A DNA stretch of 64,000 bases. Origin: Lautropia sp. Its GTDB lineage: Bacteria; Pseudomonadota; Gammaproteobacteria; Burkholderiales; Burkholderiaceae_E. This document shows, piece after piece, positions 2,221 through 10,989 of this stretch (the first letter of the stretch is position 1; every line of letters begins with the position of its first letter). The notes under the pieces were generated by a model. The model was not told the origin of the DNA and did not search any database. It saw nothing but the letters and a program-made list of their open reading frames with translations. The position numbers and the translations under genes are program-made. The stretch spans positions 1,385,891 to 1,449,890 of the forward strand of contig JAUNAC010000001.1 in NCBI GenBank assembly GCA_030527825.1, read 5' to 3'.

Positions 2221-2247
2221 GCGCGCAAGGAGAGGTTCTGTGCCTGT

Positions 2248-2835
2248 TCAGCCCCGCTGCGTACGATCAGGTTCACCAAAGGGTACGAAGTCCTGCTGTG
2301 CCAGGGCGGTCTGCACCCAGGACTGCACAGCGGGCAGCGGGTACACGCTCCGCAGGTAAGCGGCAATCTGGTCGGGCACGGGCAGCGCATAGCGCTTCAG
2401 GCGCATGACGACTGGCGCAAAGTAGGCGCCGGCGATGTTGAATCCGCCAAAAAGCAGCGGGCCGCCATGCGCTGCCAGCAGTGACTGTCACAGTGTGGTG
2501 ATACGCGCCACGTCAGTGTGCAGCCCGGGATGTTCGTGCCAAAGACGGCTGGCCTGTTTCGCTCAGGTTGGCCTCAATATTCATCGGGCAATGCTGGCGG
2601 AGATGGTTAAAACCGCTGTGCATTTCTGCACAGATCGAGCGTGCCCAGGCTCGCTGGCAGGGATCCTCTGGCCAGAGTTGCTTCTCGGGGAAGCGCTCGG
2701 CAAGGTACTCGGCAATGGCGAGCGTGTCCCACACTACCAGGGGTTAGCGTGCTGCGGATGCCGTACCCGCTCGCGGCTCGTCATCCATCAGGATGAATAG
2801 TTCCGGTTACCGTTACCGATATAAAGCGTGAGCAT
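2248..2835 (-). pseudogene. Decayed glutathione S-transferase gene (YfcF/Ure2-like)
   Basis: Three GST-like pieces lie in different frames on the minus strand. From ATG 2835 the N-terminus reads MLTLYIGNGNRNYSS and then hits TGA. A second piece (about 2734-2560) reads WDTLAIAEYLAERFPEKQLW and then CAEMHSGFNHLRQHCPMNIEA, the typical end of the thioredoxin-like domain and start of the helical domain. A third piece (about 2490-2250) reads AAHGGPLLFGGFNIAGAYFA and then FVPFGEPDR, the usual C-terminus, ending at TGA 2250-2248. About 30-35 N-terminal residues between the first and second pieces are missing. The gene is therefore broken by an internal deletion and frameshifts, and no intact product is expected. 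The family assignment rests on remembered GST motifs. Confidence 0.8.
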
Positions 2836-2849
2836 GGAAAGGGGCTCCT

Positions 2850-3275
2850 TCAAAGGGGCTGCCTGGAGCGAGTGTGTCGTCCCACGGCCGTCGTGTGGTG
2901 TTCAGCCGCCAGCGGGGTGGTCAATGGGCGGTATCTTCTGATGCAGCCCGGGCAGACCTGACCAGCAGGGCAAGGGCTGGCGGCAGGCACGCCATGCATG
3001 ACCTGCTTGCGCACGTCGGTGAACTTCCACCAGGGTTGGGCCGGGGCACCCGCCATGAACCGGGTGATGGACATGAACACATCGATCACACAGGGGTCGT
3101 GCATCTTCCCTGTGCTCGCGCATAGCCTGTCATAAAGGCAGAATGGGCATTGACCGACGAGGTCGACAGGATGATGGATGCCGACCTGCCTCAGGTCCGC
3201 TGCAGCCGCGGCGCCAACATTGGGCAGGTCGGTCAACTGTTCTACATGGGTGCGATCGGCCTTGGCAGGGTTCAT
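2850..3275 (-). CDS. Helix-hairpin-helix protein, Cdd1/mitomycin-resistance family
   Basis: A small cytoplasmic protein of unproven biochemical role. Proteins of this family (Pfam 'Pathogenicity locus'/Cdd1) are often annotated as mitomycin resistance or helix-hairpin-helix proteins. The diagnostic stretch is residues 14-97: LTDLPNVGAAAAADLRQVGI is the HhH turn, followed by HHPVDLVGQ, the cysteine-bearing CPFCLYDRLC, HDPCVIDVFM and PWWKFTDVRKQ. ATG 3275 was chosen because the family similarity begins just after it; no strong ribosome site is visible. Family members are usually about 90-110 residues, whereas this frame runs to 141. The last about 45 residues do not resemble the family and may be read-through past a lost stop. 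It sits between a dead GST gene and a gene-poor stretch, so decay is possible. Confidence 0.6.
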   Translation of the reverse strand: MNPAKADRTHVEQLTDLPNVGAAAAADLRQVGIHHPVDLVGQCPFCLYDRLCASTGKMHDPCVIDVFMSITRFMAGAPAQPWWKFTDVRKQVMHGVPAASPCPAGQVCPGCIRRYRPLTTPLAAEHHTTAVGRHTRSRQPL

Positions 3276-4049
3276 GACAGGATTGTCTCGAGAGGGGGGC
3301 GCTGCGTTTTCCCGCGCGGGACGTGTGACAGCGGTCCAAGAGTTCGTGACGTGATTTCGTGAAGGCAACGCTGCCGTGCGTTCTGGCGTTGACAGGATGG
3401 CCACCAGAGCCATGACCAGCGCACCGGACAGCGTCGGATAGAGCAGGCAAGATGGCGATGAGCACCCCGAGTCCGGCCAGCAGCCTGGCCCAGACAGGTG
3501 ACCGCGGAGGCACTGCACCTCTCTCCACGGAATCGGGCCAGGCCCTTCCGTGGGGCTAGGCTGGCCTCCTTGGGGGGAAGGCTGTGGTGTGCCTCATTGT
3601 GATCTCTTCTGGTTATCGGGACAACACGGGGTTAACAATATCCAAACGATCGGTATTTTCCAGGATTAAGGGAAAACCCAAGATCCTGCGGCAACCACAG
3701 GCATACCCGAGTGTGGTGGTGTCAGGTAAGGGGAATCCGTATTGGCAGACGCTGGTGGGGGCGCTACAACGCATCCGGTTGTCCGGACGGGCGTACATCA
3801 GAGGCAGAGCCATGGAGGGCCGCCGCTAGCGTGTCTTCGGCCTGGGTCCTGGCAGGCGTGGGAACACTGCCGGCACCATTGCCCGTGTCAGGGACGGTCC
3901 TGGCGAGGCCGCCCTTGTGCAGACAGGCGGTCGCGTGATCGAGAGCCTGCGCGTAGCAACGTTGTCAGTCTGAGGAGAAGTGACGAATTCGCTGGGTGAA
4001 GGCTGGATTGGTCACATCAAGACGCGTGGGGGCCGGTCGGATGAAAACG

Positions 4050-4078
4050 TATGTCGCGGTCGGGCTTTCGTGTAAACT
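4050..4078 (+). promoter_or_regulatory. Possible greA promoter
   Basis: TAAACT at 4073-4078 is a reasonable -10 box. The hexamer 17 bases upstream (TATGTC at 4050-4055) is a poor -35. The position would give a leader of about 95 bases with the hairpin at 4100-4125 inside it. This is a weak match, offered mainly because of that leader. Confidence 0.3.
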
Positions 4079-4099
4079 GTCAGCATCGACCGATCATGG

Positions 4100-4130
4100 A
4101 CCCCGGTGCCTGTTGTGCCCGGGGTTTTGT
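4100..4130 (+). terminator. Terminator-like hairpin in the greA leader
   Basis: ACCCCGG (4100-4106) pairs with CCGGGGT (4119-4125) around a 12-base loop and is followed directly by TTTT and further T-rich sequence. The structure lies about 50 bases upstream of the greA ATG on the coding strand. It resembles an attenuator that would release a short leader RNA. Confidence 0.5.
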
Positions 4131-4180
4131 CATTTGTTTGTTCCAGTCCTGACAGGACCGACCTTCCGGAGATTTTCGAC

Positions 4181-4660
4181 ATGGCCACCTCCGTCCCGTT
4201 GACCAAGTATGGTGCCCAACTGCTCAAGGACGAGCTGCAACGCCTGAAGTCGGTCGAAAGGCCGAATGTGATCAATGCCATCGCCGAGGCGCGTGCCCAG
4301 GGGGATCTGTCGGAGAATGCCGAGTACGAATCCGCCAAGGAGCGGCAGAGCTTCATCGAGGGGCGTATCGCCGAGCTTGAGGGTAAGCTGTCTGCCGCCC
4401 AGGTCATTGATCCGGCCACGCTGGATGCTGAAGGCCGGGTGGTTTTCGGCGCCACGGTGCAGCTGGAGGACATTGAGTCGGGAGACAAGGTGACCTACCA
4501 GATCGTCGGCGATGATGAAGCCGATATCAAGCAATCCAAAATCTCCATTTCCAGTCCGCTGGCCCGAGCTCTTATTGGCAAGTATGCCGGAGACGTTGCC
4601 TCCTTCCAGGCGCCGGGAGGCGAACAGGAGTACGAAATTCTCGAAGTTGTCTACCGCTGA
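4181..4660 (+). CDS. greA: Transcription elongation factor GreA
   Basis: GreA enters the secondary channel of stalled, backtracked RNA polymerase and stimulates cleavage of the nascent transcript 3' end. At 159 residues the protein is the normal GreA length. The N-terminal coiled coil carries the acidic tip in GDLSENAEYESAKERQ (residues 42-57, with the D/E pair needed for cleavage). The C-terminal FKBP-like domain includes ISSPLARALIGK near residue 123. An in-frame start at 4106 exists, but ATG 4181 matches the family N-terminus (MATSVPLTKYGAQLL) and has a GGAGA-type site just upstream. The leader contains a hairpin that may attenuate expression. Confidence 0.97.
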   Translation: MATSVPLTKYGAQLLKDELQRLKSVERPNVINAIAEARAQGDLSENAEYESAKERQSFIEGRIAELEGKLSAAQVIDPATLDAEGRVVFGATVQLEDIESGDKVTYQIVGDDEADIKQSKISISSPLARALIGKYAGDVASFQAPGGEQEYEILEVVYR

Positions 4661-10684: not shown

Positions 10685-10761
10685 CGGGGTGTAGCGTAGC
10701 CTGGTAGCGCGCCTGGTTTGGGACCAGGATGTCGGGAGTTCGAATCTCTCCACCCCGACCA
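10685..10761 (+). tRNA. tRNA-Pro (UGG)
   Basis: Cloverleaf folds by eye. The acceptor CGGGGTG pairs with CACCCCG. The anticodon stem CCTGG/CCAGG holds loop TTTGGGA with anticodon TGG at 10719-10721. The T arm contains GTTCGAATC, and the CCA end is encoded. Confidence 0.95.
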
Positions 10762-10770
10762 GACAGCAAT

Positions 10771-10798
10771 GGCAGATTGTGTATAATCAGAATCTGCC
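10771..10798 (+). promoter_or_regulatory. Inverted repeat enclosing a -10-like box between tRNA-Pro and tRNA-Arg
   Basis: GGCAGATT (10771-10778) is exactly complementary to AATCTGCC (10791-10798). TATAAT lies in the loop at 10782-10787. There is no good -35, so this may be a second promoter or simply a processing hairpin in the tRNA precursor. Confidence 0.4.
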
Positions 10799-10824
10799 TG
10801 GTCTTCAGATTCGGCCGGATAGAA

Positions 10825-10901
<77 letters not shown>

Positions 10902-10912
10902 GTTGTACCAGT

Positions 10913-10989
10913 GGTGGCTGTAGCTCAGTTGGTAGAGTCCCGGATTGTGATTCCGGTTGTCGTGGGTTCGAGTCCCATCAGCCACCCCA
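10913..10989 (+). tRNA. tRNA-His (GUG)
   Basis: The acceptor GTGGCTG pairs with CAGCCAC. The extra G at 10913 can pair with C73, the G-1 identity element of histidine tRNA. The anticodon stem CCGGA/TCCGG holds loop TTGTGAT with anticodon GTG. CCA is encoded. Confidence 0.95.

Follow-up and report, generated by a model that had tools for sequence, protein, structure and literature searches.

The greA leader in Lautropia

The window, by which we mean the whole stretch of 64,000 nucleotides that was analysed, comes from the genus Lautropia: among the matches listed, its GreA is 94% identical to that of L. dentalis over 159 residues. The elements of the greA leader are listed in Table 1. Upstream, carB ends at position 2220, 1.9 kb before the greA hairpin, whereas in most loci with a recognised carB its end lies less than 200 nt from greA. 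In the carB-greA interval (2221-4097), an ORF on the opposite strand encodes a Cdd1 domain (2850-3518), and at about 2251-2487 there is a broken GST-like remnant with a Pfam E-value of 0.037, below the Pfam cutoff. On the other side of greA, three tRNA genes (Pro tgg, Arg tct and His gtg) are clustered at 10685-10989.

Table 1. Elements of the greA locus, in coordinates of the window
Element	Position	Strand	Basis or remark
-10-like element CGTGTAAACT, with hexamer TAAACT at 4073-4078	4069..4078	+	motif in 7 of 9 Lautropia loci
Terminator hairpin, core ACCCCGG/CCGGGGT, one bulge	4098..4127	+	sequence, folding
U-tract TTTTGTCATTTGTTT	4125..4139	+	sequence
Extra stretch between U-tract and Shine-Dalgarno (approximate limits), with small GTCCTGACAGGAC palindrome	4140..4166	+	window only
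Shine-Dalgarno GGAG	4168..4171	+	sequence; GGAG or GGGAG at matching place in sisters
greA coding sequence	4181..4660	+	Pfam GreA_GreB_N and GreA_GreB; NCBIfam GreA

The hairpin is built on a core of 7 bp (4100-4106 with 4119-4125), followed by a bulged T at 4107, inner GC/GC pairs and the loop CTGTTGT; it runs into TTTTGTCATTTGTTT, a U-tract interrupted by GTCA. Its stem core ends 56 nt before the greA ATG. The segment 4094-4130 has a minimum free energy of -18.5 kcal/mol (z -3.1), and equally good folds were obtained in 2 of 200 shuffles; the stability of the full 96-nt leader is ordinary (z -0.7 against shuffles). We scored terminators by U-tract and stem energy, with our own code. The window hairpin reaches 12.2 and, scored in this way, the proven GraL terminator of E. 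coli reaches 8.5. The value of 12.2 was attained by none of 230 other gene starts of the same genome on the forward strand and by one of 230 on the reverse strand. Taking the best site per overlapping 140-nt segment, this hairpin is the sole site above -10 on either strand from the end of carB to greA. A simple promoter and terminator scan called neither the hairpin nor a promoter just upstream of it, its one promoter being placed at 3632-3659; we think that the bulged stem falls outside the loop and stem rules of such a scan, and the -35 region is poor. The preliminary description had placed a terminator-type hairpin with a T run between a likely promoter and greA. Folding and score confirm the hairpin, and the stop-signal hairpin in front of greA is real.

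The promoter itself is a prediction. Of the 9 Lautropia loci, 7 have the motif CGTGTARACT no more than 260 nt before greA, and it does not occur once in 800,000 strand-bases sampled from the genome of the window; of the two remaining loci, L011 has the related TACACT in its place, and in L006 the -10 motif is absent. No good -35 accompanies the candidate in the window, where transcription is predicted to start near 4085. If the start is taken 7 nt after the -10-like element, the RNA of the window would measure 53 nt to the end of the U-tract. The corresponding predicted length is 45 to 62 nt in six of eight Lautropia loci, 95 nt in L005 and 112 nt in L007, which has a long structured leader with some 72 nt ahead of the hairpin. 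Over a broader set, 35 of 97 loci have a promoter-like score of at least 8 in the 85 nt that precede the hairpin, compared with 17.5% of shuffles and 5% of segments further upstream.

Conservation of the hairpin

Folding recovers the hairpin in all nine greA loci of the genus, and the score is at least 0 in eight of them. L005 scores -17.4, its arm being too long for the scorer, and folds as a hairpin. At 1408-1475 of that locus, a much longer apical arm is carried by the same hairpin base, and both the base stem and the U-tract are kept. A paralogue in the window's own genome gave a best score of -60 in a single scan; its start codon is not fixed, so that it provides no test. In the eight other Lautropia loci, the stem core ends 27 to 31 nt before the greA start, and the extra stretch at 4140-4166 is missing from all of them. 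All nine loci keep a T-rich stretch behind the stem, and in seven of the eight sisters the U-tract reads TTGTCTTTTT, with further Ts on one or both sides.

The outer five pairs of the stem (CCCCG/CGGGG) are invariant in Lautropia, and are for this reason uninformative on pairing. Pairs 6 to 8, on the other hand, occur as GC, AT, GT, CG, TA and TG across the genus, and are mostly still paired. Pairs were counted with both arms anchored at the stem base, because MAFFT alignments misplace the 3' arm. Permutation of the 3' arms gave P values of 0.015 to 0.046 for compensating pairs (8 or 6 sequences, with L005 left out and relatedness uncontrolled), which lends modest support to compensating changes in the inner stem. 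The structural conservation on which the preliminary description had made its proposal depend is thus found in the genus, modestly so as regards the compensating pairs.

To look beyond Lautropia, we took 214 distinct loci, 4 of an initial 218 having been dropped as duplicates, and scored the 140 nt that lie before greA in each. They comprise 136 loci placed in the Burkholderiales, some given and some chosen with the aim of at least one per family, and 78 named matches, mostly titled betaproteobacteria, which are biased to near relatives, since they are the best of the matches listed. A score of at least 0 was reached by 81 of 214 greA loci, against 10 of 1,070 shuffles, 6 of 214 loci on the reverse strand and 2 of 230 other gene starts of the window's genome (a control drawn from 400 kb of 2.8 Mb, with start codons assigned mechanically). 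The excess over shuffles is present in each of five GC bands. By part of the sample, 50 of 136 order-placed loci pass (7 of 680 shuffles), as do 31 of 78 named loci and, when Lautropia is removed, 73 of 205. When only loci of 3 kb or longer are taken, the hairpin precedes 55 of 131 greA starts and 1 of 372 starts of other genes.

Within the 136 order-placed loci, 18 of 46 families have the hairpin at a score of at least 0 and 19 at a score of at least -10, and the remaining 27, often sampled by a single locus, show none at the latter threshold; of all 214 loci, 116 lack a hairpin even when the threshold is lowered to -10. The family to which Lautropia belongs contributes 46 loci from other genera, and 14 of these reach 0 or more. 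Hairpin sequences differ between families: the stem arms are CAGAGGTCAC/GTGACCTCTG in Noviherbaspirillum, CCACGCTC/GGGTGTGG in Methylophilus and CGCCCCGG/CCGGGGCG in another genus of Lautropia's family. Of the conserved mode of control suggested earlier, the conservation of the hairpin is borne out, in the genus (9 of 9) and in a good part of the Burkholderiales (50 of 136 order-placed loci).

Probable attenuation of greA and other readings of the hairpin

The reading that we favour, and consider fairly probable, is that hairpin and U-tract together make up an intrinsic terminator that acts as an attenuator within the 5' UTR of greA, which would release an RNA of some 45-55 nt and whose likeliest purpose would be feedback by GreA. 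RNA polymerase would start near 4085 and transcribe about 13 nt before the hairpin. At the U-tract it would either stop, freeing the short RNA, or continue into greA. Partial termination is the best reading of the score, the direction and the conservation of the element. In the window and most sisters there is no room before the hairpin for a sensor, a leader peptide or an antiterminator, so that the share of read-through would most likely depend on the state of the polymerase during elongation. Because GreA, the product of the gene itself, acts on this very state, a homeostatic feedback like that of GraL in E. coli would be the likeliest purpose, and a plausible one.

The most serious alternative is that the hairpin terminates the upstream carAB unit, acting as an insulator against carAB transcription running into greA, with any effect on greA being incidental. 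Where the carB-greA gap measures at least 60 nt, the hairpin is present in 85 of 127 loci, against 1 of 51 where the gap is shorter (36 of the 214 loci, 12 of them with a hairpin, gave no recognisable carB), and in the 85 wide-gap hairpin loci a median of 41 nt separates the carB stop from the hairpin. Moreover, of the six Lautropia loci in which carB was found, five show no further terminator above -18 on the way from carB to the greA hairpin, and the window shows none above -10; transcripts of carAB may thus well reach the greA hairpin. The hairpin, however, stays close to greA when the gap widens. In the window, carB is 1.9 kb away, beyond the Cdd1 ORF and the weak GST-like remnant, whereas in other genera the hairpin often lies shortly after the carB stop. 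In six Lautropia loci the carB-greA gap varies from 215 to 442 nt, and yet the hairpin stays 29-31 nt from greA; one of the sisters, L006, has, in addition to the greA one, a strong terminator (score 33) some 36 nt beyond the end of carB. Among the 85 wide-gap hairpin loci, extra gap length accrues mainly on the carB side (rho 0.84, versus 0.44 on the greA side).

The position of the hairpin bears on the same question. It ends at most 36 nt before the greA start in 60 of the 98 loci that have a hairpin at a score of at least -10, which leaves too little room behind it for a promoter and a Shine-Dalgarno sequence. Since no greA promoter fits there, such a hairpin must attenuate greA too, and this geometry makes it part of the greA transcript. 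We therefore hold it unlikely that the hairpin belongs to carAB with only an incidental effect on greA, and suggest that, where carB adjoins, it may serve both carAB termination and greA attenuation.

A second alternative, less likely still, is that the hairpin is a 5' UTR stem which protects the mRNA or governs ribosome access, without any termination. In the sisters the U-tract almost directly adjoins the Shine-Dalgarno sequence, and in the window the read-through RNA can refold around it. Neither the T-rich stretch, kept in 9 of 9 Lautropia loci, nor the strong strand direction (81 versus 6 of 214 loci) would be required of a stabilising stem, though, and the refold was not found in the seven sisters folded, the leader region being no more stable than shuffles. 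As for the refold itself, the stretch 4140-4166 lets the 3' arm of the terminator and the U-tract pair downstream, up to the Shine-Dalgarno sequence, and when the read-through RNA of the window is folded, the terminator core forms with a probability of only 0.23, against 0.92 to 1.00 in the seven sisters. We considered this window-specific structure as a candidate and set it aside: its absence from the sisters and a stability no better than that of shuffles led us to take it as probably due to chance.

Classical attenuation, by a leader peptide or a ligand-binding leader, is very improbable: an 18-codon frame does run over the hairpin from an ATG at 4096, but this ATG lacks a preceding Shine-Dalgarno sequence and is missing at the same place in all eight sisters, so that a leader peptide at 4096 was rejected as not conserved. 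A riboswitch or antiterminator was rejected likewise: there is no Rfam match at the greA leader of the window, only about 9-23 nt precede the hairpin in seven of eight Lautropia loci, and in the RNA as far as the U-tract nothing competes with the hairpin (its core pairs with a probability of 1.00 in 8 of 8 Lautropia loci).

Relation to known greA leaders and origin

Attenuation of greA is already known, from GraL, from the Rfam family RF01769 and from the survey of premature terminators in PMC2965389, and the leader of the window is a Burkholderiales variant of it. The E. coli greA leader and its small RNA GraL, of 37-59 nt, are described in PMC6829880, which cites Potrykus et al. 2010; there, about two thirds of transcripts end at the leader terminator. 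According to the same source, GreA seems to raise leader termination in vivo, an effect not reproduced in vitro, and the mechanism of GreA feedback through GraL is unsettled. Both leaders have a terminator in the greA 5' UTR soon after the transcription start, a predicted one in the window, with a GC-rich stem and a U-tract, a similar terminator score (12.2 in the window, 8.5 in E. coli) and a similar predicted RNA length. As judged from sequence, the window has an intrinsic terminator in the greA 5' UTR. A greA promoter just upstream is a candidate from the -10-like element kept in 7 of 9 Lautropia loci, and the predicted 45 to 62 nt of six Lautropia loci (53 nt in the window) are near the GraL lengths.

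The two leaders differ in that the upstream neighbour here is not dacB and that no covariance model matches: RF01769, the Enterobacteria greA leader, gave no match in window positions 4000-4300 at E<=5, while the E. coli control scored 127.5 bits. The leader of the window is thus no member of that family, although gene and kind of element are the same. They also differ in the distance from hairpin to start codon, which is 56 nt in the window and 27-31 nt in the sisters, against 103 nt in E. coli. The preliminary description is supported in part: its GraL-like layout in different sequence is borne out, with the hairpin nearer to the start than in E. coli. The figure of PMC2965389 shows greA leaders of enterobacteria and bacilli, together with rnk leaders; antiterminators are reported in that survey, whereas none was found in the leader of the window. 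In searches of an open-licence paper library, we found neither a report of a greA leader terminator in the Burkholderiales nor transcript data on greA from this order.

For comparison, we scored 68 loci that belong to the class but to other orders, some given and some selected by ourselves with the aim of at least one per family (68 of 93 genomes from outside the Burkholderiales; L242 was removed as a Burkholderiales repeat). None of them scores at least 0, and one scores at least -10. Of the 69 loci L241-L309, which still include the wide-gap repeat, 60 have fewer than 60 nt between greA and the end of the closest frame upstream. In 55 of these 60 that frame ends in a carB-like motif by our own recognition pattern, and in 45 greA overlaps it by 4 nt. 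This overlap with a mostly carB-like frame suggests translational coupling. In agreement with this, operons of carAB and greA have been reported in Xanthomonas and, as cited in the same paper, in Pseudomonas aeruginosa (PMC4619228). Since greA mostly abuts or overlaps the upstream frame in these loci of the class, having a leader of its own looks like a derived state of greA, and the terminator in the Burkholderiales leader probably has an origin separate from the enterobacterial one. The simple idea that greA, once freed from carB, always gains a terminator was not supported: only one of the eight wide-gap loci outside the order has one, and a weak one at that (-1.9), so that freedom from carB is not enough to bring one.

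A more specific scenario may be put forward, albeit as a doubtful one. greA would once have been the last gene of the carAB operon, in overlap with it, and the lineages in which it was freed, Burkholderiales and enterobacteria, would each have gained a terminator of their own in the leader, unrelated in sequence, because a bare terminator, as RNA polymerase reads it, would in itself gauge GreA activity. The attenuator would then be a sequence-independent, repeatedly invented GreA thermostat.

GreA sets fidelity and the rescue of stalled RNA polymerase. The conserved hairpin probably lets only part of the transcripts into greA, and a leader without visible sensor, as in the window and most sisters, suits a signal at the level of the polymerase. 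A second leader of the same layout, without detectable kinship to the first, present in many genera and fast-changing in sequence, amounts to a set of natural variants, which let one ask whether the terminator alone, and not its sequence, carries the feedback.
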